Below are positions 14,736 through 49,992 of a stretch of DNA of 64,000 nucleotides, piece after piece. The DNA is taken from positions 5,660,807-5,724,806 of the forward strand of contig JAJEKV010000065.1 in the NCBI GenBank assembly GCA_021234155.1. The letters run 5' to 3'. Both the position numbers and the translations under genes were made by a program. Position 1 is the stretch's first letter, and every line of letters starts with the position of its first letter. The notes below the pieces were generated by a model. That model did no database searches. It had not been told where the DNA came from and saw only the letters and a list, made by a program, of their open reading frames with translations. This DNA is from Isoetes taiwanensis (lineage: Eukaryota > Streptophyta > Lycopodiopsida > Isoetales > Isoetaceae).

Positions 14736-14776
14736 GCTATGAGAATTGCTACTCTTTATGATTCCTCCTAGAAATA

Positions 14777-20628: not shown

Positions 20629-23353
20629 TTAGCTACAGTAAAGTCTTCCAATGTTAAAGATATTAAATGTATGCCTCAGGTAGAATTGGGGCAGGACATT
20701 TAGCCAATGAGCTATAAATTGAGAGGCAGGGGAGCAATTACCCAGAATTGTTCTCCAAATGTATTTACCTGCTAGAGAACATGCCTGCAAGTAGAGATTT
20801 TTACATCCTAGACCCCCAAAGGTCTTTGGTCTAGCAATTGACTTCCAGTTAACAAGATGAGATCCATTCCAAATGAAGTTCCTAATAGTTTTCTCCAACT
20901 CAGAATAAATGGATTTAGGAGCCACAAGAGCAGAGGAGAAATATACATGGAAAGATGCAAGCACAGAATTTGCAATGATTGTTCTACCTGCAAAGGAGAG
21001 ACAATTCCTGTAGTTATTTAACTTTCTCTTTATCCTCTACAGAATAGGATCCCAAAGACCTCTCAGATTTGGATTTAAAGAGAGAGGCATACCCAAGAGA
21101 TTTGAAGCTTGATTGCAACTTAGGACTGAGATGCCACAGATGGAAGATTGGTCGACATCACCAATGATTTTGCTTTTGTCAAGGTTTAAGTGGACCCCTG
21201 AGGCAGCAGAGAAATCTCTAATGAGATCCAAGAATCTATTGACATTGGCAGGATTGGAATCTAGGAAGGCAAATGTGTCATCAGCATATTGAGATATTGT
21301 GAGAATGTCTAAGTTATTTGGAAGCTTAAGACCAATTAAAGATCCAGAGTTCTGCATACTAACTACACATCTTGTGAGCATCTCAGCAACAATGAGGAAG
21401 AGATATGGAGCTAAAGGGCAGCCTTGCCTCACTCTTTTTGCCAAGGGGAAGAATTTGATGGGAGATCCATTTATGAGAACAACAGAATTAGACATGGAAT
21501 TCAATCCTTGAATAAGAGAGATTAGCTTTTGATGGAAACCCATTTTTTTTAAAGCAAACTCAATGAAATTCCAGTCAACCGTGTCAAAAGCTCTTTTAAA
21601 GTAGATTGATTTGATATCCTATTCCAATGTAGACCTTCCATAGCACTAATGTAATTATCCAATATAAATCTGTTGGGTAGAAAAGCAGATTGATTGACAC
21701 TGATATTCTTCTGAAGATAGCCTTGAATTCTATTGGCAATTATTTTAGCACAAAGCTTGTAAGAAGAATTAGTTAGAGATATAGACCTCCATTCAGCAAA
21801 AGAAGTAGGATTATCCACTTTAGGCACCAAGGTAATGAAACCTGCAGAGATAGAAGAGTGCAAATGACCTGAGGCCCAAAAACCATGCACAAGACCAATA
21901 ATGTCAGATTTCATAATATTCCAGAATTGTATGAAAAATTCTGGAGGAAATCCATCAAGGCCAGGAGATTTGTTTTTAGAGAAACTTTGCAGGGTCTTAA
22001 AAATCTCATCTTCAGCAGGGATTGAAGTTAAAGATACATCCATGCAATCAATGGAATTTGGCAAGACTGCATTTAAAGTTGCCAAGAATCTGTCTTTGGC
22101 CAAGATCTCGTTTGCAGTGAGATCAATCTTCTTGAAAAAGGAAGAGTAACTATCATAGAAGAAATTTTTAATCTCAGAGGTCGAGGTGAGGATGGAGCCA
22201 GATCCATTGTTTACCTGATTTATAAAATTCTTTAAAAGCCTATTTTTAGCCACTCTGAAGAAAAATTTTGAGCTGCCATAATCTAATTCACTATTGTATT
22301 TAATCTTGCATTTGATGGCAGAAAATTTGGCTTCCCTCTCCTCTATGCTTTTCAAATACCTTTCAAGAAGTTCTTCACCTACATGAAGATTGTAATTTAG
22401 AGGGTCAACCTGGAGGAGAGATCTTATCTCTTTCATTTTATCCTGAACTCATATGTTTGTTTTTAGCCCAATTCTTGATCCATCCTTAGATTTTTTTATC
22501 TTGTGATAGAAGTGTTTTATAGAATGATTTGGAAGCATAGGATCAATAGATTGATAGAACTGAGAAAACTCTTGTTGGAATGAGCTATTTTGCAGCAGAG
22601 AGCAATTCAATTTGAAAGGTGTATTACCATCCCTTGGAGGTTTCAGAAGATGCTTGGTATTAAGAAATTGAGGTTGGTGATCCGAAATAGAGGTACCTTC
22701 ATCACTTGTTACAAAGCAATTATCCCATAAAATCTATCCAATGCACAATAGACTCTATCTTGATCTTTCTGCTTATTGGACTAGGTGAAAATAGAGGTGG
22801 AAGATGGAATATGAATTAGGGAAGAGTCAGCAATAAAATTATCCCAATTCCTTCTCTCAGTTAAGGACATGTTAATTTTATTCCCCAATTTCAAGTCCCA
22901 AGCTGGAGTATTGTTAAAATCCCCTCCCAAAATCCAATCAACTAAGGAGTTGCTAGAGATCCAAGAGTTAAGATCAGGCCAGAGATTTTCTCTATCTTTG
23001 GGACAAGTAGAACCATAAATATTGATAACCCCAAATGTGGAATTATTAAAAGAGAAAGTTACAGCTTGCCACATTTTAGAGATGTTGTTGCAGAAAGAGA
23101 TATGTTGGAGATTTTTCCAAATAATACACATACCTCCTTTGGTACCATTTGCTTCCATCCAAATGGAAGAAGCCCCAGGATAGATCCAGTCACCCAAACT
23201 GGATGCCTCAAACTTAGGAAGCTTCAATTCTTGAAGCAATATAATGTCAGCATTATATTGTCTAAGTTGAGCAATGGCTCTCCTTCTCTTAAGGGGCCCC
23301 TTAATTCCTCTCAAATTACAACTAATTATCCTCATTATAAGAGTAATTGACAA
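20629..23353 (-). pseudogene. LINE ORF2: endonuclease and reverse transcriptase
   Basis: The reading starts at 23353 with ISCNLRGIKGPLKRRRAI, then LLQELKLPK (catalytic Glu), WILGGDFNNTPAWDLK and SIFT, where the expected Trp codon is TAG (about 22781). Reverse transcriptase follows at 22436: PGLDGFPPEFFIQFWN, LVPKVDNPTSFAEWR, QSAFLPNRFILDNYISAMEG. A frameshift near 21600 loses the first Asp block. Then VRQGCPLAPYLFLI, SQYADDTFAFLDS with YADD, LLGMPLSLNPNLRGLW, a stop, and GRTIIANSVLASFH to the break at 20629. Few lesions for its length suggest moderate age. Confidence 0.88.
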
Positions 23354-34312: not shown

Positions 34313-34641
34313 AACTGTTGATCGCAGAGTATGAGAGCCCACCTGCCTGCTCTGCCTTATCCCGACAGCCCAATCACCCTTCAGCTGATTTATCTCCTTC
34401 TTGCTGCTACTCACTCCACTGCTGATCTGTTGCCCTTCTTCTATACTGCCCGCTCTCTCTTTGTTCACTTATTTGAGGCGCCTCAATGCCCCGCAGGTCT
34501 GTTCGCTGCCTCAAAGAAAACGTCTGCCCTTTTCGTCCGTTACTATCTCCTGTCATTATTACACAGATATCTCCACCGCATTCTATTATAAGGCAACGTG
34601 TCCACGCCATGCCATCTTCAGCATAAAGGCTAAATCCAACA
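34313..34641 (-). mobile_element. Copia 3' LTR
   Basis: On the minus strand it begins TGTTGGATTTAGCC and ends near CAACA(GTT). It is collinear with 49319-49654, with scattered indels and roughly 80-85 per cent identity by eye. A purine-rich tract (GGGGAGTT) lies directly upstream of its first base, as expected for second-strand priming. Divergence from the other LTR implies an old insertion. Confidence 0.8.
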
Positions 34642-34651
34642 AACTCCCCGT

Positions 34652-36995
34652 TTAGCCTTTATGATCTATGACCCCCACTAGGTTCTTTGCTAGGTCAGAT
34701 AGAACCTTTGTTAGCACATCTGCCTGTTGAAGTTGGGTGGAAATATGCATTACGTTTATCTCCCCCTTCTCCACTTTATCTCGTATGAAATGATGATGTA
34801 TATCAATGTGCTTGGTTCGAGAGTGTTGGACTGGATTCTTTGTCATTGCCACTCCGCTCTTATTATCGCAGTACAACATGGTAGCTTCACTTGATGAATT
34901 CCCCAATTCCTCAAGCATTCTACGTAGCCAAATTATCTCTGAAGCTGCCATGGATACTGCTACATATTCCGCTTCCGCACTAGATTTAGCAACGCACTCT
35001 TGCTTTTTACTTGCCCATGATATTGCTGCATTCCCAAGTTTGCACAGATAACCAGATGTGGATTTTCTGTCATCAATATCTCCTCCCCAATCTGCATCTG
35101 CATAACCAACCAATTTGTTTTCCGTACCTTTCGAAAAACAAATTCCGTGTGTCACTGTCCCTTTTAAATATCTGAGTACTCTTTTTGCCGCTACCCAATG
35201 CCGTATTCCAGGATTATCGCAAAACCTGCTCAGCAAGTTAACCACATAAGTGATGTCCGGTCGAGTACAGTTTGCAATGTATAATAAACAACCAATCAAT
35301 GATCTGTAAGGTCTGGCTTTCATTTCCCTAGTCTCCTTTGGTGTCTTGGGACATATGTCTCCACAAATTTTCACTCCCGAAGCTATAGGTGCTTTCGCTG
35401 GGTTGCATTCAAGCATTCACCCTTGTAATATTTTGCTCCCGCGTAAGGTACCCCACTCTCTATCCCTTCGAACTTCGATTCCTAGCAATTTTTCCAAGTC
35501 TCCTAAGTCCGTCATCTGGAAACGACCATTCAGCAATGCTTTGAAATTTCTTAATAGACTTTTGTCATTGCTTACAATGACGCAATCATCCACATAGAGA
35601 GCCATAATCAGACATTTGTCCCCATTCCTTTTCATATACAAATTACCCTCGGTTTTCAACTTTGTAAACCCCGCAGAAGTCAGGAATCTGTTCATGCACA
35701 AATACCATTGCCTGGCCGCTTGCCTAAGCCCGTAAACTGCCTTTTTCAACTTGCACACCATGTTCTGACCTAGTTCATAGCCTTGTGGCTGCTCCATGTA
35801 TATTTCTTCGTCTAAATCTCCATTCAAAAATGCAGTCTTAACATCCATATGGTTTATCTCCATGTCATTCTGCACTGCAACTGCAAGGAGTGTCCTTAGA
35901 CTGGTTACTTTGACAATAGGTGAGAACGTGTCTTTATAATCTACGCCTTCTTCCTGAGTATACCCCTTTGCAACCAGTCTTTCCTTATACCACTCTATCG
36001 ACATTCTTATCCTTCGGTCGTGACACGAGCTCATAGGTGCCTGTCCTTTTAAATGAATCTAATTCATTCTGCATGGCTTCTTTCCATCGATCTGCATCCT
36101 TTCTCTCCAAGGCTTGTTCCACCATTTCTGGTTCTGCTATACAAGACAATACTCTAGGTTTTCTTGGTCTAGTTGTCTTCCCACTTTCTTCCCTGCCGTA
36201 TAATCTTGTATCAAACGGAACTCGGCCTTTAGACATTCTGTGTCACTACATCGTATTCTCCTACTACCTTCCCCCACCTGAGATCCAGGTTCTGGTGCAC
36301 TATTGGTATCAACAACCTCATGCACCTCCTCTGGCTCGATTTCCGGTTCATGAGGTGCACTATCGGACTCGACGACCTCATACACCTCATCCGGTTCTAC
36401 CTCTGCCTCTTCAATTACAGTACTAGTCTCTGTATCTTCTTCACTCTCCAGCTCCACATCGATTTCATCGTCCTTCAAAATTGTGGCCTCTGTTCCTTCT
36501 TCATTTTCGACTTGATCAGTCTCCAAATATTCTGTTGATACCCACTCACCTGCTTCATGCTGGCTTAGACTTTTCCTGTCCTTGTATAGAACATTCTCAT
36601 TAAATACAACATCCCTGCTAACATATACTTTACGTGTGACTGGTTCATACAATCTGTAACCATTTGTCTGCTCATCGTAACCCACTAGGAAGGTACACAT
36701 GCTTCGATCATCCAGCTTTCTTCTTAACTCTTCCGGTACCATCATATAGGCAAGACACCCATAGACTTTAAATCTTTTCACAGATTGTTTTCTACCTGTC
36801 CAATACTCTTCAGGCACTCCTCGTTTCACAGCAACTGTTGGCAATCTATTCTGAATGTAGCAGGCAGCTGCGACAGCCTCTCCCCATAGACTGTTCGGCA
36901 AACCCGCATGCTTAAGCATGGATCTAGCTGCATTCATGATGGTGCGATTTTTGCTCTCTGCTACTCCATTCTGCTGCGGTGTGTACCTGCATGTA
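34652..36995 (-). pseudogene. Copia pol: integrase end, reverse transcriptase, RNase H
   Basis: The reading starts in the integrase core with YTPQQNGVAESKNRTI. It passes through the Copia C-terminal block (VYGCLAYMMVPEELRRKLDD, FLVGYDEQTNGYRLYEP) and an acidic linker. After a frameshift near 36200 reverse transcriptase follows: [50 protein letters not shown] and [10 protein letters not shown] with YVDD. A lesion near 35417 precedes RNase H (YADADWGGDIDDRKSTSG, AEAEYVAVSMAASE, HIDIHHHFIRD). Gag, protease and the first half of integrase are missing: the frame is cut at about 36998 by foreign sequence. Confidence 0.9.
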
Positions 36996-37006
36996 TATTA
37001 TCTCCT

Positions 37007-37803
37007 GATATATTATACCAGAGTGCCAGTATGCAATGCTCAACTTGCAATCACGCATGCCTCCCTTGCCGCCTCTGATTGCTCGCAGGAGGGATGGAAT
37101 GGCTCATGCGTTCCAATCCCAACGTGAAATGGACCTTTGGAGGGGGGTAGAAGAACCGCGTGAAGGTGAAGAGGTACCAGACATTAATCAGTACCTGCCG
37201 CCCGCTCCTGGGCCAGCAGGTGATTGTGGTGCGAACGTGGATGCAGACGATTACTTTAACCCATGAGCTATCTACATTATTTTTTTGATAATTTTCCCTA
37301 AGATCTCAGATGCACATGAATGAACCAACGTTCGTTGACGAGGATTTCTTTGTTTTAATAAAATTTTGGGGGTTGGGTTGCCTTGAGTTGTTTGTGTAAT
37401 AGTTAAGTAAAGTAAATATGTGACTGAGCCAAAACATCTGTGAGTGAGCACCCTATTTGACATCTGGACCTCATGTCAGGCCTTCTTTTCTTTGAACGTC
37501 ATAGTTGATAAAACCATAGTTGATAATCTTTCATCCTGGCTTAGTCTCTTTTGTTTGTCCTGTTTGATGTGTCTAATTTGCCCCCTGGGATGAGGTTGCT
37601 CACTCATTTTAGGTGGCGAATTAGATACATCAAGCAGGAAACTCGAAAAGGGAGTAAGCCTGGAGCGCGACCCTCTTGAATGGTTGTCAACTCACCAGGC
37701 TTGATGTTCTCCGTGGCAAACAATATAGACTTCTCGAAATTCTTGTTACCTCCTTTAGAAAGAGCGAGCTTTGCTCTCACTCTTTTTGGGTGTCTCTGTG
37801 TCA
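37007..37803. repeat. Left arm of a 797-bp inverted duplication
   Basis: It is the reverse complement of 43178-43973. The inner 230 bp (37036-37266) read the same protein in both arms, while a few substitutions and indels separate the arms near 37600-37680. The arm contains the C-terminus of a RING-finger gene, its downstream region and a conserved block near 37670-37790. At its outer end it meets Copia integrase; at its inner end it runs into the hairpin array at 37808. Confidence 0.93.
37036..37266 (+). pseudogene. Duplicated C-terminal fragment of the RING-finger protein
   Basis: This 76-aa frame (RMPPLPPLIARRRDGMAHAF and an acidic tail ending NVDADDYFNP) is the inverted copy of 43714-43944. 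It starts inside the coding sequence because the duplication break (37007) cuts the gene just before the last RING cysteines. It cannot be an independent gene. The unchanged frame reflects recent copying. Confidence 0.75.
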
Positions 37804-37807
37804 TGAT

Positions 37808-38035
37808 CTTACGCGAAGTTTTTTTCGCGTAAGCGAAACACTTGTTTTCGCTTACGCGAACCAAAAAAAAATTCGCGTAAGCGAAATCAACCGTTTCGCT
37901 TACGCGAAGTTTCTTTCGCGTAACAGTTGTTTTCGCTTACGCGAAAATTTTTAAACTTCGCGTAAGCGAAAACAACTGTTTCGCTTACACGAAAGAAACT
38001 TCGTATAAGCAGTTTCGCTTACGCGAAACTTTGCA
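37808..38035. repeat. Array of TTCGCGTAAGCGAA hairpin units (left)
   Basis: About eleven whole or partial units alternate between TTCGCGTAAGCGAA and its complement TTCGCTTACGCGAA, separated by 5-12 bases often rich in A or T. Each unit is a 5-bp stem (TTCGC/GCGAA) around GTAA or TTAC. The array starts five bases after the inverted-duplication arm ends. A second array lies at 48254-48410. Confidence 0.93.
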
Positions 38036-38474
38036 AAGCATCTTAGGGCATTTTGCTAAGGGAAAAAAACTTTTTGCGCTACTGTTTGGTCTATTTTGTG
38101 CAGGTGAAATATTATATATAAGAAAAACGTGTTTAGCTCTAGAATTCGCCTCGAACATTGACTACCAGGTCGAGTCCACATACTCCTTGGGAAACGGTCA
38201 GCCTTTGAGGTGTGGGTTTTTGTGTCCGGGGCCTGACGCCGGAATTGTGAAGTGAGATTCCTCCTTCACAGAGTTTTCCGACCTTGGGTTCCTACCCTGT
38301 TCCTTAGAGACCTATAGGTTCCTGTCCTTTACTCCTTACGTTCGAACGGGACGTCGATGTAACATATGCGTAGTGAGCTTGCTCCTTCGCGTATATAGAT
38401 TAGTTCTGACGATTAAGGAGTCTTTACCCTTTAGCATACCAGGGCAGAGACAGTAATTTTAGATAGCAGCAAGG

Positions 38475-40980
38475 ATGTCAGCTGGTCATGCATCTACATC
38501 AGGCGCCGCTGGCGGCCATGCATCTACATCCGGCGCCGCCGGCGGTCATGCATCATCGTCTAGGGGTGCGCGGCCATCGTGCGGTCATGGCAGGGCCACG
38601 GGGGTTGGAACAGTACGTGGAAGAATTATATGTCGAAATACTGGTGGTCGAAAGAGAGGTCCTGAGTGGGGATTTGTGAAGGAATTTGGTCAGAATGAGT
38701 GGCAATGTGTATTTTGTGGGTACACATCAATAAATGGATCCGCGACAAGAATACGAGCTCATCTTTTACGGGATCCTAAAATTGGGGTGCAAAATATGTA
38801 CCATCTGATTCCGACGACATACGACAAGATGCACTTGAAGTGTTGGGTCGAAAAAAGAATAGCAGCAGAAGAACACAGCCAAGGGATAGCCAAGGACCTT
38901 CACCATGCCAAGAAGAAGAGATCAATTACACCACCCCTCTTGCAGCGCCAATGTACCAACCAGAGGGTGGACTAGGGTCGATAGGAGGGTTAAGGCAAGC
39001 GAAAAAAGAATGGCGAGACAATTGAGATAGTGGAAAGACACTAAGCAAAGCAGAGGGTTGACCCGATTGCTTAACATCGAGAGCAAGCCAAAGAAGACGC
39101 AATTGAAGGTTGTAGAGGCATTTTTATATGCCGGGTTGTCTCCACATATTTTGGAGCACAAAGCAATGAAAGAAGCCTTCCAGGAAGTTGCCAAAGCAGG
39201 GCCGGTTTTTAGATTGCCTTCATACAAACATGCCAATAACAAAAGGGTGGATGAAATTCACGGGAAAATGGTCGAGAGGGTGGAAATGAAGTTAAGTCGT
39301 TATTCTTTCGAAGCCCGGGCCAGCCTCACTAGTGACCCGATGGTTGGAGCAATGTAAACAAGGACCATCTTATAAATTTCATGATCATGTATCCAGGGGG
39401 CAAAGTATTCTTGAAAACCGTAGAAACCAAAACTGACCAAGTCACAGAAGATTGGATTTTTCAAAAAACAAAGGCTGTGATAGAGAGTTTTGGACCGAAA
39501 AAGAATATTTCAGGTCGTAATGGACAACGATCTAATTGTAAGTTAGCGGGTGAATTGTTGGAGTCTCAATTTCCGGGATTGCACGCGACCAACCGCCAAT
39601 GCCATTGCCTAAACTTATTCTTGAAGGACTGGTTTTCCGCAAAGACACTTGGTTCAAAGATCCCATTCAAAAGGCCCGTCCGTCTCGTGAAATTCATCAC
39701 AAAGAAGCCGCAATTTACGCCATATACAAGTCATTGCGTCGAAAGGCCCTAGCACTCATGAATCCTCGCGGACTCGGTTTGGTTCCAATTACATTTGTCT
39801 TGAAAGAGTGCTTAGGTGTCGCGACTTCGATTATCTCGACCTTCAACCATCTGAGTTCTTTGAATGGGAGAGGAGGCGTAAGGGAAAAAATGCTTCAAAA
39901 CACCGGCAAGACAAGCCGCCCCTTCGAGAAAATGCTTGGGCGGAGACATTTTTGGAGAGGCGTCTGAGAATGTTGTCAAGTGCATGCAACCTTGTTTGTC
40001 ATGCCATTAAAACCCTTGATTCTTGAAGGCAAGCAATGGAAAGGTCCGGAGGTGCTGCACTCCATTCAATCCTTTCTAGAACGCGATGGCTCCAATGCAC
40101 CCTTTGACAATGCTAAAAGCGCGCCTTTCGCTTAGAGACTTCAATGAATGATGGAAGAAGTCCTACAATGATCTTCATGGCGCCAACATATGCCTTAGAC
40201 CCACACAACCATGATATGGACCAGCATCTACGATAAAGAAGTGATGGGTTCATTGAAGAAGGTTGCAAAATGTTTTACCCCAACAGCTCGGACTACAAAA
40301 TTTTCATTGCCGAAGTTAAACCAATACCGAACTTGAGTAGAAGGTGGGCAGATGAAGAGCTTCACGATGCAATCGGAGAGTCACAAGAAGGAACCAAATA
40401 TGGAATCTTATGCATGGTGGCAAGCCCATAGAGAGGTTCTTGACACGTTCTGTGCCCTTGCAATGACTATCCTCTCCTTGGTATCCTCCAATAGTGCAAG
40501 TGAGAGGAACTGAGTGCTTATAAGTACATACATAGTGTGACCGCGAATTGCCTCTTGCATAAGAAGGCCGACAAACTTGTATATAACTTCTCAAACCCAG
40601 GCTCTTGAATTGCAAATTGGTGCAGCCGTAGTTGATAAGCTACTGATTTCCTTTCATGGATCGCGGTCACGGGTGGAAGAGGACAACTTCAAGATAAAGT
40701 GAGGACGAGCTGGCTTGTAAAAATGCCGCTAACCATGTTGATGAGGACATTCAACGTACCCATTTTGTCGATGCCGAAGAAAATTTAGACAAGAACATGT
40801 TCTCGGACGACTCAAACGACAGTGAAGATATAGAAGAGGAGTCTGATACAGAAAGGCCAGATCAAATAATCTGAGGAGATCAACGAGGGACTTAATGGTA
40901 CGTGACCAGCGGACTCTCAATGCCAATGACCTGCACAAGCGGGCAGCGTGTCAGAAGAAACACATCTCGAGGACGTTGCA
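38475..40980 (+). pseudogene. hAT-family transposase, decayed
   Basis: An ATG at 38475 opens a Gly/Ala/Ser/His-rich leader with a near-identical repeat (GGHASTSGAA) and then a BED-type zinc finger (EWQCVFCGYTSINGSATRIR, AHLL). After stops the DUF659-like core appears: FLYAGLSPHILEHKAMKEAF, FRLPSYKHANNKR, FMIMYPGGKVFLKTVETKTD, and LLESQFPGLHATNRQCHCLN. The hAT C-terminal dimerisation block is visible at 40450-40615 as VSSNSASERN then AYKYIHSVTANCLLHKKADK. Many stops and frameshifts. No 8-bp target duplication or short terminal repeats were found, so the element borders are unknown. Confidence 0.82.
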
Positions 40981-41846
40981 GTAAGGGAAAGGGCTAGAGG
41001 AGGTTGAACCTAGGCCAGCAGGCAGAAGAAGACAGAAGCCCAGATGATGAAACTGATGAAGACGGTGATGTCTAGAAAGAGGATGTGATGAGTACCCTCA
41101 GTCTATCTATTGTAATCGTGTATGAGGATGTTCAAACTATTGTAACCATTCTGGCACTATGAATAAAAAGTAAAGTTTTTTGTTACAAGTTTTTGTCTTC
41201 TATATATTTCGTCACCTTGTTTTATGTTTCTTTCATGTATGATGTTTCTTTCATATATGATGGTTCATGTAACCGGTCCATGTTTCATTCATGTGTAACA
41301 TCGGATCGACCTAAGTGCCTAGAAACCTCGCACCCGCCAAAGCCGGATTGACTTCCGCTGGCGCTTGCCTCTTAAAATGCCACGAGATCTTGCTGATGAG
41401 AAGTAATCTACGCATGCCAAGGGGTCAAACGGCCACGGATCAGTTGATACGACTTTGACGGATACGAGATTTCACTAGATACACGATGCACTCTCCAACC
41501 CAATGATTATGCATCACCGTGTTCTATTACCTCCGTCGACCGTAGTGCCCTAAGAACCTTCCTCGGATCAGACCCGTCTCGACTTCCGTTGTTGCTTGCC
41601 TCTTCGCATGCGCCAGAATCTTGCTGATGAGAAGTAATCTACGCACGCGAAGGGGCCAAACAGCCTCGGACCAGCTGGGACGAATCTGATCCATCAGAAG
41701 GTTCACAAGGTACATGATCCACATCCTCCCAACCACTAGATAGGTGAGGCATATCTCCAGTACGCCAAGTTGGACAAATGTTTCGTTCATGTATGATGGT
41801 TCTTTCTATGTTTCTTTCATGTGTACGCCAAATTGGGAATAACTTC

Positions 41847-42000
41847 GGTACGCCAAATTGGGCTTTGAATGCTATCAGGACCTATAATCTGTACTCTATT
41901 CCTCTGAATACCAAATGGGTTTGCATGGCATGTGCCACCCAAAGGAATGGAGGTACAAATTATAGGTCCTGATGGCATTCAAACGCCGATTTGGCGTACC
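41847..42000. mobile_element. 154-bp foldback (MITE-like) element
   Basis: The 42-bp arms (41847-41888 and 41959-42000) are inverted repeats starting GGTACGCCAAATTGG and ending AGGACCTATAAT, with a few mismatches and a 70-bp centre. Related TACGCCAA[AG]TTGG motifs stand alone at 41750 and 41823. No obvious target duplication. Confidence 0.65.
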
Positions 42001-42419
42001 ACCGGATATCAAAGTCAGTAATCTCAAATGAACCCACAGAATCGCAAGCAACCACTAGGCTGATATCATCCGCTGCCACAATAAAAATAGAGTACTCAAA
42101 ATCCTTGTTACCTACGTCGATGTACAATCCACCACCACGCCAAAGGGGATGCGTCCTCTAATTTCAAGTCATAGTGATGCTCAAGGTTCGCCATCAATAG
42201 CAGGAGTTAGGATGTTCCATGACTTGGTGCCTAACAGCCGCTATATAGATGGACAACGCCCAGGCATCACTTTGGCTTGAAATTAGAGTGCGCTCTCACC
42301 TCTGACGTCATAGCAACTTCTACCTCTAGAACGAACGATTTTTGCTCCGGCCCCCATTGTGAGCCTCATTGTGTAATATAACCTAGCAAAGTGACTAAGC
42401 TACATTGACACAGAGAGAC

Positions 42420-42665
42420 TACACAAGAGAGCCAGAGCAAAGCTCGCTCTTTCTAAAGGAGGTAACAAGAATTTCGAGAAGTCTATATTGTTTGCAGCGA
42501 ACAATATCAAGCCTGGTGAGTTGACAACCATTCAAGAGGGTCACGCTCCAGGCTTTTTACTCTCTTTTCGATGTTCCTGTTTATATATATCTAAAGTGCC
42601 CCCTAAAATGAGCGAGCGAAATCATCCCAGGGGGCACTTTAGATACAATAAACAGGACAAGCAAA
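42420..42665 (+). repeat. Third copy of the conserved block in the inverted arms
   Basis: It matches 43190-43440 and the complement of 37600-37790. In all three copies one frame is open across AKLALSKGGNKNFEKSILFA followed by NIKPGELTTIQEG. Base changes in this copy (TEN to ANN) keep the frame open. A weak resemblance to the start of a SET domain is visible (FA..NIKPGEL), not enough for a call. Confidence 0.6.
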
Positions 42666-43177
42666 AGAGACTTACCCCCAAAGACCTAGGTCCAAAGCAT
42701 CGAGACGTCCCAATCTTTACTTTCACCCGCCTCATATGGACAATGGAACTTAGCATGTAAACTAAGCTATATTGCCCAAAGAGGCGGGGGAAAGAAAAAC
42801 GGGGAAGTCTCGATGCTTGAATTCAAGAATCAAAGCATCGCGGATTCCCAAATCGACCTGAGTGCAAGCATCGAGACTTCCCAAGCCTTGCTTTCACCCC
42901 TCTTTGGACGATGGAACTTAGCATGTAAACTAAGCTACATTGCCCAAAGAGGAGGGGAAAGAAAGATTGGGAAGTCTCGATGCTTGAACTCATCAATCAC
43001 TAACATCTAATGACCCCACGGAATCGCAAGCAACCACTAGGCTGATATCATCCGCGGCCACAATAAAAATAGAGTACTCAAAATCCTTGTAACCTCCTCT
43101 AGAACGAACGATTTCTGCTCCGACCCCCATTTGGGCGTCTTTGTGTAATACAACCTAGCAAAGTATCTAAGATACAT

Positions 43178-43973
43178 TGACACAGAGACACCCAAAAGAG
43201 TGAGAGCAAAGCTCGCTCTTTCTAAAGGAGGTAACAAGAATTTCGAGAAGTCTATATTGTTTGCCACGGAGAACATCAAGCCTGGTGAGTTGACAACCAT
43301 TCAAGAGGGTCGGCTCGGGCTTACTCCCTTTTTAGAAGTTTCTCGCTTGATGTATCTAATTAAGCCACCTAAAATGAGTGAGCAACCTCATCCTAGGGGC
43401 AAATTAGACACATCAAACAGACAAACAAAAAGAGACTAAGCCAGGATGAAAGATTATCAACTATGGTTTTATCAACTATGACGTTCAAAGAAAAGAAGGC
43501 CTGACATGAGGTCCAGATGTCAAATAGGGTGCTCACTCACAGATGTTTTGGCTCAGTCACATATTTACTTTACTTAACTATTACACAAACAACTCAAGGC
43601 AACCCAACCCCCAAAATTTTATTAAAACAAAGAAATCCTCGTCAACGAACGTTGGTTCATTCATGTGCATCTGAGATCTTAGGGAAAATTATCAAAAAAA
43701 TAATGTAGATAGCTCATGGGTTAAAGTAATCGTCTGCATCCACGTTCGCACCACAATCACCTGCTGGCCCAGGAGCGGGCGGCAGGTACTGATTAATGTC
43801 TGGTACCTCTTCACCTTCACGCGGTTCTTCTACCCCCCTCCAAAGGTCCATTTCACGTTGGGATTGGAACGCATGAGCCATTCCATCCCTCCTGCGAGCA
43901 ATCAGAGGTGGCAAGGGAGGCATGCGTGATTGCAAGTTGAGCATTGCATACTGGCACTCTGGTATAATATATC
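43178..43973. repeat. Right arm of the inverted duplication
   Basis: It is the reverse complement of 37007-37803. Here the RING gene continues beyond the arm at 43973, so the right copy is the source and the left copy is a truncated inverted duplicate. Confidence 0.93.
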
Positions 43974-45180
43974 CATCCTCTCGCTGGACCAGAACCCACG
44001 CCCATCATCCAATCCAACAAACACCTCAAATGCAGACGATGTCCACACCCTAAGGCATACCAACCAACTTGGGTTAGATTGTCCGCACACACTTGACAAT
44101 ATCTAAAGTCCCCGTTCTTTACATCATCCCACTGACTGTCATATAGGTATTCGGGAGGGAGGTATGCAATACCCTGCTCCTTGGAGACTCTAAGGGGATC
44201 AGAATCTAAGACTCTTGATATTGTGCGCATATGCTCATTGTCTACTCTCAACAATCGTATTTTCCCTACCCAAAGGCTTTAGATGTGCACCTAGTTGATT
44301 CTTCGTGTCTAGTAATTACTGCGACCATCTTGTCATGAGCATTTGCACGATCTTTTAAAAGCCAAGTTTTCCTCGACGAGTGAGGTTTCGACTTCTTTCA
44401 TTCTCTAACTGAGCCTTGGATCTACCTCATCCATCACTTTGCACCTGCTTTGCTACCCCCGCCACATCTAAAAAGTTTTATGGCATCTTGGAGCAAATAG
44501 GTTATAGTCACGGGCTCATCACCAAGGCGCTTTTCGAGAATCGTCCATGAGCTTCACTCTCTTCTTTGCTACCATTTAAACTTCCTTGTTTCCACTTTCT
44601 CTTGGCATAATTTCTGGGGCTCCTTTCTCACAATCTCATAGTACACTTGCTTGGCAAAAGTCTTCTTGAATTAAATGGTTTTATCATTGTTCCTTTCACT
44701 TGCACCCACTCTCCAAAGCTTTTGCTCCGGACTTGAGGATCTTCACGATCATTATGCCTTATACTTGCTCTCTTACTGGCAGTCGGTCGGCGTCAAACCT
44801 GTTTCGCGTCTAAATTGGCCTCGATATCCTCAAAATCCGCTCCATGCGGGCAACAACCTGGGCCCATGTCACATGCAACTCCATGCACCTCTGTAATTGT
44901 GACACCTTTCTTGGCCACTTCTGCCATTGCCCTCAACCTCAACAACTCTTTTGCACGCGCTTCATTCATTCTAGCATGTTCCTCTGCTTTATGTATCTGT
45001 TGTGACCCTGACCTCTGACAATGTAGGTAGAGAAGGGAATACAAATCCATCTGGTTCTGGAGTTCTCAAAGCGGACGGCACAGAGAAGTCGCCTCCATGC
45101 CCAGTTTCATCAGCCCCTTCTCTCGTCTGCTGATGAGAAGAACTCGGTCGCCGATGAGACGAACTCGGTTGTTGAGACAT
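43714..45180 (-). pseudogene. RING-finger gene, decayed
   Basis: An ATG at 45180 opens MSQQPSSSHRRPSSSHQQTR, a Ser/Gln/His-rich start. After a frameshift comes a helical, coiled-coil-like stretch (EEHARMNEARAKELLRLRAM). A poorly preserved region follows, then YCQVCADNLTQVGWYALGCG and HRLHLRCLLDW (Cys-x2-Cys, Cys-x-His, His, Cys). One frame later CQYAMLNLQSRMPPLPP and the acidic tail complete the C-terminus. The spacing fits a RING-H2-like E3 ligase, but the final CPxC is split by a frameshift. It lies downstream of the kinase-like gene on the same strand, 400 bp away. Confidence 0.55.
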
Positions 45181-45586
45181 TCTTTTGTGTTTGGAACTAG
45201 GTAGGTTGTTTGTTCGTTTTCTTGCGGATAGGCTTTACGTTAACTGCGCGAAATAAAAAACAACTCAATATGACTTATAAATTATAAAAAAAAAATAAGT
45301 GCAACAAAAATAAATACATAAGAATGCCAAAGATATTTTATTGAATAAAGCAATTGTTCAATCAATAATTTTTTTGGTTGCGTACAAGAGAGCTCATAAA
45401 TGGCACGCTAAAGCGTGACTTGGTCCAACTTTTGTCGATCGTAAATGCACCTAACCCAACTTGAGGAATCCAATCTGATTCCGTTTGGGGTCTTGTGCAA
45501 TGTGTTGGAGAGCAATTCCAAGTGCTCCGCATGGTGTTCAGTAGCTGGTTCAGATCAAACTTGCGTGCCTTGTCTCGTATTGGGGA

Positions 45587-47182
45587 TTAAATGCGATTAG
45601 CTTCAAATAATCGCACATGTTTGAAACCTCCTCGGCTTTGTTCATTGGTACCCATAGTCTCCAAGAAAGAATGCTTGCGTGCAAAATTAGCAAGGTAATA
45701 GATAAAGTAGGCTGCCCCTAAGAGATCAAAGTCTACCCTTGATTGCACCGTCTTAGTTCCATCTCTTTTTGGACCCCAATACAAATCATCATGCATGTAT
45801 GGATAGGCAAGCCTTTCATTCTCAATCGCCTTTTTGGCAGCAGCATCCATGCCTTTGTATGCCCACCGCTTCACTTCCATAGGCTCGCCTATTAACCGTT
45901 CTTCTCCCCAGTCACATATACCAATATAAACAGCCTGGGGGTCCGTGCATCCTCTCTCTTTCCCAAATTCAAAATGAAGCAAGACATTGCCCGGGTGCAA
46001 GTCCATGTGTAAATGGTGCTCTTTATGAAGCTTAAGCAAGCCGCTTAAAAACGACATAGTTAGATCACCCACTCTTTGAGCAACATATAACTCTTGCTTT
46101 CTTCGTTGCTCAAGCTTATGGACGCCGACCTCGACGGTGAGCTTATACCCTAATCTCTTAAATGCATGCCCAGCAAACTCATTATCTCCATGATGCACAA
46201 AAAGAGATGCACAAGAACCCCCATTCGGAAATATCAACCCCCGTTCTTTCCAACCCGGTTATGCGGCCAATGCAAATATGATAGACCCATGTCTAACCTG
46301 CATTTGTGATTCCCTCATGTTTTTCATCATGGCCTTTACTATCACATCAGGCCTGGCCGTACCTAACCGCACATCATCAATCTGAAATTTAACACAATAG
46401 GGTTCGTCTTTAAGAAAAGTAGAACCCAAGATATTGCCTTTGAATACCGTTCCATATGTTCCTGAACCAATTCTGGTCCTGTTGATTATTTGAGAGGAAT
46501 CCACCATTGCAAACCATATAGTCTTGGCATCTGCCCTTTTTCTTGCTTCCCACTCTTTATCAGTTTCACCAGGACGCTAGGCTCTAATAGTCTGTGCCAA
46601 CACTTTCTTAACTAGGTGGGGGGTTGATGGGTTTCCTTTCTAAGCTTTCGATTCGTCCAAGCTGTGTTCCATTCCACAGCCTTATCTTTCAAAGACTCTC
46701 TCAAGCGTGGACTAGTTAGATTTGCCACCGCGTGAATCATATTTCCAGTTGTACGGGATACATTGCCATCTATCCAAGCATACCTTTCAGTATCAATCTT
46801 TTCAGGTTCTAGGTCTATCATTCGAGGCCCAAAAGCTCTCTCAGCATCTCTCATGAGACTTGAGTGGAAGTCTAGCCATCCTTCAATGCATTGTAGTAAT
46901 CAACTCTAACTCAGATGGGGTGGCAGCACATATTCGCTCACAAAGCCAATTCATTAAAGCGGGTCTTAAGGAGGACCATGGCTGTTGGGGTCTTGATCTT
47001 TTCCTTTGCATCTTAGTAGAGGACTCGGCCTCTGGGTTCATGTGGGGCTCTGCTTCTACCCTAGGTCCTTCTTTAGGGCTCATGTGCGGCTCTGCTGCTT
47101 CTAGTCTAAGCCCGCCTAACTCTTGTGGTAGAAGAAACTGTGTATAGATAGCGATATGCCAACTGTAGCAAAGCAGCAACAA
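45587..47182 (-). pseudogene. Protein-kinase-like gene, decayed
   Basis: The kinase domain starts near 46507 with IINRTRIGSGTYGTVFKG (Gly-rich loop) and YCVKF with the likely ATP-binding Lys. An in-frame TAA at about 46260 interrupts it; the same frame goes on with HLHMDLHPGNVLLHF (catalytic Asp and Asn) and ICDWGEERL (DWG in place of DFG). It ends at 45587. HxDLHxGN is more like atypical or lipid/small-molecule kinases than plant receptor kinases. Upstream (47182-46612) there are protein-like frames with PHMSPKEGPRVEAEPHMNPE and GWLDFHSSLMRDAERAFGPR, joined by a frameshift. It is probably the N-terminal part of the same gene. Confidence 0.6.
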
Positions 47183-47189
47183 TACCTAA

Positions 47190-48250
47190 AAGTCGGGGGG
47201 AAAAAAAAACCCACTTTAGTGAGTGTCAATAAGCCGTGAAATGGTTCATTAATTTTCTAGTAAACTACTAAGTTTCAAGCTTGACGGTTATAGACACCCT
47301 ACTGAGTTTCAACTTGACGGTTATAGGCACTCTATGGTTAATCTACTGAGTTTGACAGTTACGATTAGCATTTCTCTCATTCTCTTCAACAAGTTTAACT
47401 TATGATCTGACCCAGCTACTGACTCCATTAGGAAACTCCCTCATAGAGGTTGGCGGCACTCAACTGAACATATTGCATAAGACCACCTAGCAAAGTCACG
47501 AATATTTAATGAAATATACGCCACTTCCTATATTAGTGTTGAACTTTCGTCAACAACACCGTTAGAAAATAGGGTATATCTCATTAAATATTCTTCTAAC
47601 CTTCCATAAGAGTACAACACCCATCTTTTAGCACCGCGTGACCAAAGCCAACAAGCGGTAGGAGAGGGCTATACACCTAAATGGGAGGTTGACCCTAGCA
47701 ATCCTCGACATCAGCAATGACACCCACCCTCGGCATGGCACAATTCAATGTGGCACGCCAGGGCGAAGGGTCATCCTCGACCAAGGATCACTCCGAACTA
47801 AAACCTAGTCTCTCTTAATGCACTCCCTACCCTAACTGCTACTGTTGTCGATGAAAGGGTAGGCAACCAAATTTCTCTTTCTTATTTTTTTATTTTTATT
47901 TTTTTTTTCATTATTTTTTTTTCCTTTTTTTATTGTTTCTGTTCTCTTTTTTTTTTTTTTTTTTTTTTTCATTATTTTTTTCACAAAAATCAGTCTGGGT
48001 TCGACCATAGAACGAGACGCTCACCATCGTCACGTCCCTCAATGGAGGGGGGCAACAGGCGAGGGCCTCACTTTGGAGGAACCCTAGACCTACAAGAAAA
48101 AAAAACAACAAAAAACTAACTAGGTTTGCCTAAAAACTAAGAAAAAATGAAAAAAAAAGGAAAAGGGGCACAGGTTGTGGAGGAGGGCGCAGGTGGTTTA
48201 CCTTCTTCTGCGCAAAAACAAAGAAAATGCGCCTCCTTATATATAAAGAA
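47190..48250. other. Non-coding stretch with homopolymer runs
   Basis: It holds a local repeat of TTGACGGTTATAG (near 47281 and 47313) and a T-rich tract at 47881-47985 followed by A-rich tracts to about 48165. Nothing coding was seen. Confidence 0.6.
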
Positions 48251-48253
48251 AAG

Positions 48254-48410
48254 TTCGCGTAAGCGAAAACTACTGTTTCGCTTATGCGAAACACGCTTCG
48301 CGTAAGCGAAACTTATAAACCAGCTTATGCGAACGAAAAAAAATTTCGCGTAAGCGAATATATCTGTTTCGCTTATGCGAAAGAAGTTTCGCGTAAGCGA
48401 AAATTAAGAC
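48254..48410. repeat. Array of TTCGCGTAAGCGAA hairpin units (right)
   Basis: Seven whole or partial units of the same palindrome as at 37808-38035 alternate in orientation; several carry a TTATGCG variant. The array lies upstream of the kinase-like gene and about 10 bp from the LINE fragment that starts near 48420. Confidence 0.92.
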
Positions 48411-48419
48411 TTCGTTTAT

Positions 48420-49081
48420 CAGCCCAGAGATTGGAGAATTTATATCCTCCTTTGGAGGATGTGGAAAGCTAGAAATTCTCTCATCTTTAAAGAAGAGATT
48501 GTGTGGCCCAAAACTGTCATTGAACAGTCAAAATTTGATATAAAATGGATTAATGAAGTATTCGGGTAACTTATATATTTCTTTGTGTTTTTCAGGAAAT
48601 ATTTTGGTGGGACAAAAGAAGATAGGATGGGACCGGATCAATTTGATGATTAATGCAATGTGGCTTTATCAGTTTGGAGCCAACCCTACGATATATCATG
48701 GAGATAACTGCCGATGCGACTGTTCTTGCTTCCAGAATTATGATTACAGAAGACTGCTCATTTGTGAGGCCGTGGATCTCACTGGGCGTTTCAACCCAGC
48801 AAAATTCCAGACATGCAACTGTCTGTATTGCCAATTCTGCTCGACTTCCAGAGGATTAGGGCGAAAATAGTGACCATATGGGATATTTCCGACCATCGAA
48901 CTTGCTGCCTTTTTTTCTACATGGTGAATGCATGCCTATAATATATGCATTCCTTGATATAATAGTCTTTTTTGAGACTTAGAGAATGCATACATATAAT
49001 ATTTGCATTCTCGCAATTTTTGTACCTACTCTTTCTACTTTAATATATATACTAAGCCTTCAATAAAAAAAAAAAAAAAAA
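48420..49081 (+). mobile_element. LINE 3' end fragment with poly(A)
   Basis: The fragment starts in the C-terminal part of ORF2 (WKARNSLIFKEEIVWPK, a typical post-zinc-finger block) and ends with AATAAA (49062) and a 17-A tail at 49065-49081. A second frame (48553-48867) is open for 105 codons with many Cys residues (CRCDCSCFQ) and may be chance. The tail points into the Copia leader, so this LINE inserted there. Confidence 0.75.
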
Positions 49082-49304
49082 CTTAAACTACGCCAAGTCG
49101 GGAGGAGATTTAAACTTTTAAACTGGAAAAAAAGTCAGCGAAAACAGGAAAGGTTTAAACTTTTACGCCGGTTTTTTCCGGCGGCCGGTATTATATACGA
49201 TAAATACATATTTTTCCCAAAAATACGTATTTTTGGACTTTATACGTCTGAAAAAATAATTTCATACGTACAGAACCTATCCCTGGGCTGGCCATATCCT
49301 TCTA
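49082..49304 (-). pseudogene. Copia leader and gag start
   Basis: Right after the primer-binding site the minus strand reads ATGGCCAGCCCAGGGATAGG, a plausible gag start. It is open for about 58 codons before a stop near the LINE tail. No gag motif is left. Confidence 0.4.
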
Positions 49305-49318
49305 GCTCTGATACCACC
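49305..49318 (-). other. Copia primer-binding site (initiator Met tRNA)
   Basis: TGGTATCAGAGC on the minus strand is complementary to the 3' end of plant initiator methionine tRNA, the usual Copia primer. It lies directly after the 5' LTR and marks the direction of the element. Confidence 0.9.
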
Positions 49319-49654
49319 GCAATCTCGGTATGAGAGCCCACACGCCGCTTCTCGCCTTATCCCCGACAAAATTTCAATCACCCTTCACCGATTTATCTCC
49401 TTCTTGCTTTACTCACTCCACCTAATCGATCACTGTTGCCCTTCTTCTATCGCCCGGCTCTCTTTTGTTCACTTATTTGAGGCGCTCAATGCCCTGCATA
49501 GTCTGTTCCGTTTCACGCCTCAAAAAGAAAACGTCACCCCCCTTTTCGTCCGTTACTATATCCTGTCATTATTACCCAGATATCTCCACCGCATTCTATT
49601 ATAAGACAACGTGTCCACGCCATGCCATCTTCAGCATAAAGGCTAAATCCAACA
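49319..49654 (-). mobile_element. Copia 5' LTR
   Basis: It begins TGTTGGATTTAGCC at 49654 and ends at the primer-binding site. It pairs with the 3' LTR at 34313-34641. With both LTRs, a primer site, a purine tract and a matching flank repeat, the whole element spans 34313-49654, most of it later insertions. Confidence 0.82.
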
Positions 49655-49660
49655 TCTGTC
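49655..49660. repeat. Right flank repeat of the Copia element
   Basis: TCTGTC matches 34307-34312. Confidence 0.7.
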
Positions 49661-49992
49661 ACATACCATAGCCCTCCAAAATGTGCTAACATTATCAAAT
49701 GTCATGTTCTTGGCTTGACATATCCCAGCATGAGCTTCAGCTGCGCACACACCACAATTGCATGAACAATTTTCATGGAGTCTTGACCTCATCAAATTAA
49801 ATGCCTGCTTGTACAGATCTGATTGCTCATGTTTCATGCAACAACATGTGTTTCTTTCCCTTAGCTTTCTAATGCAAGAAGGTTTTAAGTATTCAAATTG
49901 CTTAGCTAAGCCCAATCCTAAACAATCATTCTCACGTCGGTCTCTTGCTATAGCAATACGTAGATGAGGTCACGAGTCAATTGCCACTTAAA
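49661..49992 (-). pseudogene. Transposase-like gene, middle part (exon 2)
   Basis: An acceptor with a T-tract (TTTTTTTTTTAG) ends at 49993. The frame LGLAKQFEYLKPSCIRKLRE and RNTCCCMKHEQSDLYKQAFN leads to CSCNCGVCAAEAHAGICQAK and STFWRAMVC. The Cys clusters and the RERxxCxCxxHE pattern belong to the same protein as 33038-34306. The Copia element sits between STFWRAMVC and the continuing NEWHKLRCIKSDCGNCG. Confidence 0.6.

Follow-up and report, generated by a model that had tools for sequence, protein, structure and literature searches.

Our analysis of a 64,000-nucleotide stretch of the Isoetes taiwanensis genome (assembly GCA_021234155.1, contig JAJEKV010000065.1, positions 5,660,807 to 5,724,806; here referred to as the window) revealed that its decayed kinase and RING-finger genes are passengers of a large, very abundant cut-and-paste transposon of the hAT superfamily, and that the pair has been kept working by selection over a long time, so the transposon probably uses it. 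The window holds one decayed, rearranged copy of this transposon. Six complete relatives in the same genome are 9.1-10.8 kb long. A full element has, in order, a terminus and palindrome array, the kinase gene, the RING gene on the same strand, a repeat-rich tail, a convergent transposase gene with DUF659 and hAT dimerisation domains, and a second array and terminus. Literature searches aimed at such an element listed no hAT element with this pair.

The initial annotation had described a decayed kinase-like gene (HMDLHPGN, DWG) and a decayed RING gene on one strand, a hairpin array upstream of the pair, and an inverted partial copy of the RING end abutting a second array of the same hairpin. 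This description proved accurate. The RING pieces lie about 350 bp downstream of the kinase pieces (Table 1). In the window fragments, Pfam gave only weak matches below its cut-offs (Pkinase, E value of 2.8e-4; zf-C3HC4_2, 2.7e-4), whereas less decayed copies passed them (PK_Tyr_Ser-Thr and Pkinase in 3 of 3 kinases scanned, best 4e-11; zf-C3HC4 in 2 of 2 RINGs). The arrays of TTCGCGTAAGCGAA are far above chance, with 27 strand-matches with up to 2 mismatches against a shuffle mean of 0.15, and with 958+958 exact matches genome-wide against 1+1 for the reversed control. However, the annotation's reading of these features as a self-contained element of about 5.5 kb (array, kinase, RING, tail, array) was supported only in part, because the unit had been drawn too small. 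In the window, the mobile unit runs from the array at about 37.8 kb to the terminus at 49285 and contains the hAT transposase; the second array is therefore the far end of the same transposon. The inverted RING copy is a local rearrangement of the window copy, since the six complete copies have an ordinary terminus at that place.

Table 1. Features of the window copy and its flank (window positions; names beginning with c denote other copies in the same genome).
Position	Strand	Feature	Basis
49305..49654	-	Flank: primer-binding-site-like TGGTATCAGAGC (49305-49316) and a copia-type LTR (49328-49654), paired with 34329-34641	85.5% direct repeat and exact 12-mer; this 12-mer is a typical copia primer site
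49286..49293		GGCTGGCC, expected right-hand copy of the 8-bp target duplication; the left copy is lost with the left end	Sequence after the terminus; inferred from exact 8-bp duplications in six other copies
49273..49285	-	Kinase-side terminal inverted repeat (GAACCTATCCCTG, i.e. CAGGGATAGGTTC on the minus strand); the element ends at 49285	Exact match to the termini of complete copies; the 22-base kinase-side end occurs 644+609 times in the genome with up to 2 mismatches, reversed control 0
48419..49171		Extra DNA between array and terminus, about 650 bp longer than in c908, origin not identified	c908 has about 105 bp between the two flanking matches
48254..48401		Kinase-side subterminal array of TTCGC-NNNN-GCGAA palindromes	Pattern counts against shuffles; comparison of copies
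45587..47185	-	Decayed protein-kinase-like gene in four stop-to-stop segments (45587-46258, 46259-46576, 46612-46899, 46883-47185)	Open frames, motifs and weak Pfam matches; homologue of 589 aa from its first methionine in c1075
43714..45234	-	Decayed RING-finger gene (pieces 44989-45234, 44793-45065, 43853-44278, 43714-44004)	Open frames and weak Pfam matches; homologous open frames of 381-490 aa in c1049b, c1092, c1075 and c954
42000..43453		Non-coding tail between RING and transposase, built of direct and inverted repeats	Self-comparison; copies aligned to the window
38463..41490	+	Decayed hAT transposase gene: zinc-finger-like N-terminus (by eye) 38463-38975, DUF659 at 39336-39752	DUF659 E value of 1.3e-15 in the window; DUF659 and Dimer_Tnp_hAT in other copies; colinear alignment
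37824..38027		Transposase-side subterminal palindrome array	Pattern counts against shuffles; comparison of copies
37007..37811	+	Inverted duplicate of this element's RING end and tail, in place of the left terminus; abuts the array	97.7% identical to 43973-43168; no terminus found there with up to 2 mismatches

To define the borders of the element, as the annotation had proposed, we compared copies from across the genome. All six complete copies, which belong to what we here call lineage 1, have the 13-bp inverted repeat CAGGGATAGGTTC at both ends, of the CAGGG type, and exact 8-bp target duplications. A 7-of-8 duplication was found in c954, a copy of a second lineage, and in a cargo-deleted derivative (C23), while c1049b gave no matching pair because the right end found belongs to a nested element. 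Dimer_Tnp_hAT scored 36.3 bits in c1031 and 37.1 bits in c1084 (cut-off, 21.4), and DUF659, a region found in plant hAT transposases, gave E values of 7.6e-27 in c1031, 3.3e-28 in c1092 and 4.2e-24 in c1084. No BED family was found at E values up to 1 in the N-terminus of the window transposase or in c1092, whose open frame includes it, although a C-x2-C ... H ... C pattern is seen by eye; whether the transposase has a BED zinc finger was thus not settled either way. The catalytic RNase-H-like core residues and actual mobility were not examined by structure or assay. The annotation had also asked whether the pair always lies between TTCGCGTAAGCGAA arrays, and this is not literally true. The arrays lie just inside the two termini and were found in five of the eight long loci; 5 of the 6 complete copies hold 7-19 exact units, and c1031 holds none. 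Moreover, c1049b has the perfect palindrome TTCGCGTACGCGAA instead (961 places genome-wide), and c954 and c1092 have scrambled subterminal sequence with neither unit. Because the arrays hold the unit in both orientations, we read them as DNA-binding sites rather than RNA hairpins, without having run any folding.

We next asked whether the two genes recur as neighbors, since finding them apart and away from the arrays, or as ordinary single-copy host genes, had been named in advance as grounds for rejecting the initial reading. Neither was the case. Of 108 scored RING places, 53 have a scored kinase within 20 kb, 52 of them upstream on the same strand (chance, about 0.5). Of 177 kinase places, 57 have a scored transposase within 20 kb, 54 of them downstream and opposite (chance, about 0.6). 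The underlying scored lists comprise the best 150, 108, 143 and 87 places of 1133, 1280, 1732 and 1578 at first look, so the overlaps are lower bounds. In a random sample of 12 of 135 further kinase places, 11 had the RING downstream and 7 had the transposase within 6.5 kb; one sampled copy lacks the RING. Among 15 other copies read, three have a kinase but no RING in the DNA examined, namely, c941 (11.6 kb beyond the kinase), c1081 (6 kb) and c908b (2.6 kb). Of these, c941 and c1081 also show no terminus beyond chance-like 10-base matches, although their kinases are well kept (dN/dS of 0.20). Other lycophyte genomes were not part of the search, so the spread of the family was not assessed. 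Neither protein had a relative among viral contigs, although those scans used two short peptide patterns each and reach only fairly close relatives.

The protein-coding capacity of less decayed copies was then inspected. In the 8 kinase copies aligned, K295, D426, N431 and D456-W-G are invariant and the Gly-rich loop is partly kept; c1044, which was not in that alignment, has DRG. Comparison with solved structures gave only weak partial matches (best E value of 0.002 for the kinase and 0.035 for the RING), so the kinase was not assigned to a group; no structure prediction was run, the window proteins being broken. For the RING, zf-C3HC4 was above its cut-off in 2 of 2 open copies scanned and zf-RING_2 was just below in both. 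By our reading, however, no last cysteine is obvious, so E3 activity is not assured; the zinc-ligand pattern speaks neither clearly for nor clearly against an E3 ligase, and ubiquitin transfer was not assayed. Both proteins carry invariant basic motifs, KRSRPQQ in the kinase and KRVKL in the RING, the latter resembling the c-Myc nuclear signal.

Kinase and RING evolve under purifying selection. Of 55 kinase pairs, 25 are unsaturated, and 19 of these give dN/dS values of 0.11-0.26 (0.14-0.17 for the six at intermediate divergence). Higher values occur in the five pairs with c1044, whose DWG motif is changed (0.33-0.58), and for c1049b/c907 (0.71 at dS of 0.03). In the 30 pairs across the deep split between lineages, dS is above 2.3 or not computable, while dN is 0.21-0.33. 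Three unsaturated RING pairs give 0.23-0.28. Of 15 transposase pairs, 8 compared different halves of the protein (21-26% identity) and were not used; the other 7 give 0.25-0.54, so the transposase is not more constrained than the cargo. Copies whose open frames were too short, or whose gene was not in the DNA examined, were left out (2 of 13 kinase, 9 of 13 RING and 7 of 13 transposase).

The two deeply split kinase-RING lineages sit on elements whose transposase core and adjacent spacer are far more alike. Across lineages, DNA identity is 67-70% for the kinase and 68-69% for the RING, compared with 82-87% for the transposase and 85-91% for matched parts of the tail. Identity is 37-65% in the first 200 bp beyond the RING stop and 96-100% from 400 bp on in 4 of 4 lineage-2 copies, which places a breakpoint about 200-400 bp past the stop; one same-lineage control shows no step. 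The shared spacer is partial, however, as the middle of the tail does not align between lineages (40-59%) and c954 has no tail match. All 17 of 17 lineage-1 kinases sit next to RINGs of the lineage-1 identity class, whereas 4 of 28 lineage-2 kinases sit by RINGs of low identity (62, 65, 66 and 69%). One of these four (C935) turned out in the random sample to be a lineage-1 copy (93% and 91%), and the other three were not resolved; the RING class was judged only by identity to one lineage-2 query.

Collectively, we regard the block, with high confidence, as a damaged copy of a hAT element with a selected, co-inherited kinase-RING accessory cassette. The termini, target duplications, domains, fixed gene order, high copy number, purifying selection on both cargo genes and their co-inheritance as a pair rest directly on the sequence data. 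By contrast, it is by inference that the transposase N-terminus binds the arrays, that the enzyme moves the element by cut-and-paste, and that kinase and RING are accessory proteins that help it persist. Given their basic motifs, nuclear action is likely. The mechanism that we consider most likely is a mark-and-destroy pair, in which the kinase phosphorylates a nuclear protein, perhaps a silencing or checkpoint factor of the host, and the RING protein sends it for ubiquitin-dependent removal. No expression data were examined, no activity was tested and the target is not known; that it is a host defense factor is only a tentative suggestion. Equally tentative is the further possibility that the pair is a co-adapted, interchangeable cassette with at least two ancient, deeply divergent types, kept as matched pairs while the transposase core and spacer are exchanged between element lineages. 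In this view, the pair would be a transposon-encoded phospho-degradation system used to remove a host silencing or checkpoint protein, with cassette types diversifying as in an arms race.

Among the alternatives, the most serious, though still doubtful, is self-control, in which kinase and RING would act on the element's own transposase, by activating phosphorylation and by ubiquitin-driven turnover, to tune copy number without any host target. The three genes share the element, the convergent layout is fixed, and the transposase N-terminus is about as lineage-specific as the cargo (66-68% DNA identity in two comparisons, against 78-96% in the core), which would fit co-adaptation. However, the core is much more alike across lineages than the cargo is, and lineage-2 kinases ride with transposases up to 96% identical to a lineage-1 one over the part compared (18 copies, 69-96%). 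Passive, Pack-TYPE-like capture of unused host gene fragments is very unlikely. Plant TIR transposons often capture host gene pieces, and many copies, including that in the window, are decayed, but near-full-length open frames in many copies, purifying selection across a dS-saturated split and the same gene order in both lineages disfavor it. In addition, the complete copies hold transposase sequence together with full-length or near-full-length cargo rather than captured fragments without a transposase.

The 5.5-kb unit of the initial annotation, taken as an independent mobile element nested in a hAT element, is refuted as stated. The cassette has its own history, different from that of the chassis, but in six complete copies one pair of termini with one 8-bp duplication encloses kinase, RING and transposase, and the arrays sit at the ends of the whole element; other inner termini were not sought. 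Least likely is that the cassette belongs to Helitrons and only visits hAT elements. This was suggested by c941, in which the kinase is followed by a 1417-aa open frame with Helitron_like_N (1.8e-34) and PIF1 helicase (6.4e-49) domains, and was tested with a Helitron query and a second kinase query. Of 177 listed kinase places, only that one has one of 132 listed Helitron places within 20 kb, and one more lies at 23 kb, although 2501 Helitron candidates were seen at first look; 0 of 12 random kinase places show one within 6.5 kb downstream.

DNA transposons were long seen as a transposase between two ends, and a few plant and fungal families are known to carry an extra gene that counters silencing. 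Here, an abundant hAT family carries two signaling-type genes that selection has kept together. If the pair acts on host proteins, it would be a new way for a transposon to manipulate its host, and the cassette boundary gives a natural experiment on which parts must co-evolve. Ac/Tam3-like plant hAT elements share the short CAGGG-type terminal inverted repeats, 8-bp target duplications, a transposase with DUF659 and hAT dimerisation region, and subterminal repeats. The present element is about twice the size of Ac (4.6 kb; PMC3260210) and differs by its two further genes under purifying selection. Fungal TET+ transposons, including hAT7 of rust fungi (PMC12730594), likewise combine a hAT-type transposon with an accessory enzyme, proposed to counter host silencing and transmitted between transposon lineages; that accessory is a DNA dioxygenase, the duplication is 7 bp, and we found no kinase or RING described there. 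VANDAL elements with VANC anti-silencing proteins (PMC5735166) are plant DNA transposons with a non-transposase gene and with arrays of a short motif that differ between sub-lineages. VANC is an experimentally tested DNA-binding demethylation factor, and we found no kinase or RING described for these elements either; VANDALs are Mutator-like. KI-MULEs, or Kaonashi (PMC13317346), carry a captured Ulp1 domain in one of three genes but are non-TIR MULEs of uncharacterised function; Ulp1 is a SUMO protease. Pack-TYPE elements (PMC8903248) also hold host-type coding sequence inside plant DNA transposons but are nonautonomous carriers, whereas here long cargo genes are kept together with a transposase.

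The initial annotation had described a decayed kinase-like gene and a decayed RING gene on one strand, with a hairpin array upstream and an inverted RING fragment beside a second array, and had proposed that together they form a 5.5-kb element. The observation itself held, as all these pieces are in the sequence. The palindrome array is not a product of chance, since 27 strand-matches were found in the window against a shuffle mean of 0.15, and a search of the whole assembly, comprising 1,658,258,908 bases in 1110 contigs, gave 1916 exact matches against 2 for the reversed control. The interpretation, however, was only partly supported, because the mobile unit is larger than proposed and also contains a transposase.

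Alignment of intact copies to find the borders and target duplications had been put forward in advance as a way to test the proposed element. Six copies chosen from the best kinase matches aligned to the window from its 49.3-kb terminus well into or through the transposase, and three of them were followed to the far array. Each of the six begins with CAGGGATAGGTTC, ends with GAACCTATCCCTG, is 9131 to 10839 bp long, and is flanked by an exact 8-bp duplication (6 of 6). Copy c954, which belongs to another lineage, is 6708 bp long and has a 7-of-8 duplication. A further copy, C23, is 5335 bp long with a 7-of-8 duplication, and it keeps transposase, termini, and arrays of the unit TTCGCGTACGCGAA but only a kinase remnant; it is an internally deleted derivative. 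Copy c1049b has the left terminus, but the right end that was found belongs to a nested 740-bp element, which has the same termini and its own 8-bp duplication (ATGCATGG) and looks like a miniature derivative of the family. The transposase has DUF659 and the hAT dimerization region. Collectively, these data show that the unit is a hAT transposon.

Read from right to left, the window copy consists of the terminus, extra DNA, an array, the kinase, the RING, a repeat-rich tail with direct and inverted repeats, the transposase on the opposite strand, and a second array. No left terminus was found, and an inverted duplicate of the element's own RING end (97.7% identity) sits there instead. Beside the right terminus lie a copia-type primer site and a long terminal repeat (LTR) with a partner on the far side of the element, next to which the open frames, by our reading, encode copia-like sequence. 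We therefore infer that the hAT element probably landed in the leader of a copia element and that a later rearrangement removed the left end together with part of the copia. Two cysteine-rich open frames, one in the extra DNA inside the terminus and one in the flank, were not identified. Elsewhere in the window, two regions hold long open frames that, without a domain search, look like LINE-type reverse transcriptase and endonuclease genes.

Positions of features in the window and in other copies (L numbers denote retrieved loci, with the place in the assembly in parentheses)
Feature	Sequence	Position	Strand
Terminus	Window	49273-49285	
Array between extra DNA and kinase	Window	48254-48401	
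Tail between RING and transposase	Window	42000-43453	
Array beyond the transposase	Window	37824-38027	
Partner of the LTR beside the right terminus	Window	34329-34641	
Copia-like coding sequence	Window	34652-36997	
Scrambled subterminal sequence	Window	49072-49200	
Cysteine-rich open frame in the extra DNA inside the terminus	Window	48544-48870	+
Cysteine-rich open frame in the flank	Window	49643-49969	-
LINE-like open frames	Window	14762-16879	
LINE-like open frames	Window	20629-23353	
Divergent kinase followed by Helitron-type open frame	c941	L016:2596-8896 (G000:C941)	
Nested 740-bp element	c1049b	L015 position 9885 to L023 position 624 (G000:C1049)	
Internally deleted derivative	C23	L047 (G000:C23:193900-199699)	

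Whether kinase and RING recur as neighbors elsewhere in the genome had likewise been named beforehand as a point on which the proposal could fail. In lists of scored candidates, 52 of 53 RING-kinase neighbors within 20 kb were in the same order and strand, and 54 of 57 kinase-transposase neighbors were convergent, whereas about 0.5 and 0.6 pairs, respectively, would be expected by chance. Because these lists contain only the best candidates, we drew at random 12 of the 135 listed kinase places not yet examined and analyzed 6.5 kb downstream of each. The RING was present in 11, the transposase in 7 (a count restricted by the 6.5-kb limit), and a Helitron in 0. Of 15 other copies examined, 12 have the RING and three (c941, c1081, and c908b) do not in the DNA retrieved. 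In c941, a divergent, open kinase gene is followed by a 1417-amino-acid open frame with Helitron_like_N and PIF1 domains, and there is no RING in the 19 kb read. Its closest relative, c1081 (L024), shares the kinase and about 1.8 kb upstream and also lacks the RING.

To examine whether the genes have been maintained by selection, we compared the kinase open frames of 11 copies, which give 55 pairs. Of the 25 unsaturated pairs, 19 give dN/dS values of 0.11-0.26, the five pairs with copy c1044 give 0.33-0.58, and one very young pair gives 0.71. Across the two main lineages (30 pairs), dS is above 2.3 or not computable, while dN is 0.21-0.33. It should be noted that the copies used for dN/dS were chosen for good matches, which favors intact ones, and that the random sample applies to linkage only. 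Three RING pairs give 0.23-0.28, and seven usable transposase pairs give 0.25-0.54. Differences between c1075 and other kinase copies concentrate at third positions (149, 121, 294 against c1049b). Both cargo genes have therefore been used for a long time.

The kinase-RING cassette has its own history. Lineages 1 and 2 differ strongly in the kinase (67-70% DNA identity, seven lineage-2 copies) and the RING (68-69%, five copies), while the transposase (82-87%, three copies) and matched parts of the tail (85-91%, four copies) are more alike; c954 has no tail match. At third positions, kinase and RING differ by 0.54 and 0.57, and the transposase of copies c1084 and c1092 by 0.27. In an alignment walk against four lineage-2 copies, identity was 59-72% through the end of the RING, 37-65% in the next 200 bp, and 96-100% from about 400 bp beyond the stop, whereas the one lineage-1 control showed no such step (81-98%). 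The tail contains a stretch of about 200 bp that is 96-100% identical between lineages whose cargo is saturated with changes. Further along, the middle of the tail does not align (40-59%), the transposase core is 78-96% alike, its C-terminal part 66-75%, and its N-terminal part 66-68% (two copies). Pairing of kinase and RING is strict in lineage 1 (17 of 17) and looser in lineage 2 (24 of 28), whereas lineage-2 kinases ride with transposases 69-96% identical to a lineage-1 one (18 copies).

The array unit also differs, being TTCGCGTAAGCGAA in lineage 1 and TTCGCGTACGCGAA in c1049b of lineage 2 and in C23; the latter unit occurs at 961 places against 3 for the control. Whether the pair always lies between arrays of one and the same hairpin had been set out beforehand as a test, and this is not literally true; c954 and c1092 show neither unit. 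At the termini of c1049a, c1031, c1044, c954, and c1092, and in one stretch of the window, the subterminal arrays are scrambled into recurring strings such as TTTAAAC or GCGTCTGTG where other copies have CG-rich palindromes, which could reflect systematic nanopore error at methylated CG sites in the assembly or real divergence. Our reading, which is tentative for the arrays because unit and transposase N terminus were mostly seen in different copies, is that the ends, the transposase N terminus, and the kinase-RING pair diverge together, while the middle has been exchanged.

Searches of the open-access literature aimed at such an element, which covered neither every matching paper nor subscription papers and repeat databases, yielded no description of a hAT element with a kinase and a RING gene in titles and beginnings of abstracts. 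The words hAT and Helitron do not occur in the main text of the paper on the published Isoetes taiwanensis assembly (1658.30 Mb in 204 scaffolds plus 909 contigs; PMC8566536) or of the I. sinensis paper, and a 2026 review of gene capture by plant transposons does not contain the words hAT, kinase, or ubiquitin (PMC13317346). We therefore assign the element to the hAT transposons by the features tested, and what appears to be new about it is its cargo.

As for the role of the pair, the kinase keeps the residues expected of an active enzyme and has a conserved N-terminal extension with no Pfam match above the cutoff, while the RING protein has a long N-terminal part that is likewise without a Pfam match above the cutoff. 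Both proteins have invariant basic motifs. Whereas the termini, domains, gene order, and selection were shown, albeit in one genome and without expression data or an activity assay, the suggestion that the two proteins act in the nucleus, and as a mark-and-destroy pair, is inferred from domain types and co-inheritance. A host defense target is suggested by analogy with transposon-borne TET/JBP and VANC proteins (PMC12730594 and PMC5735166), and self-control through the transposase is the main alternative to this view.
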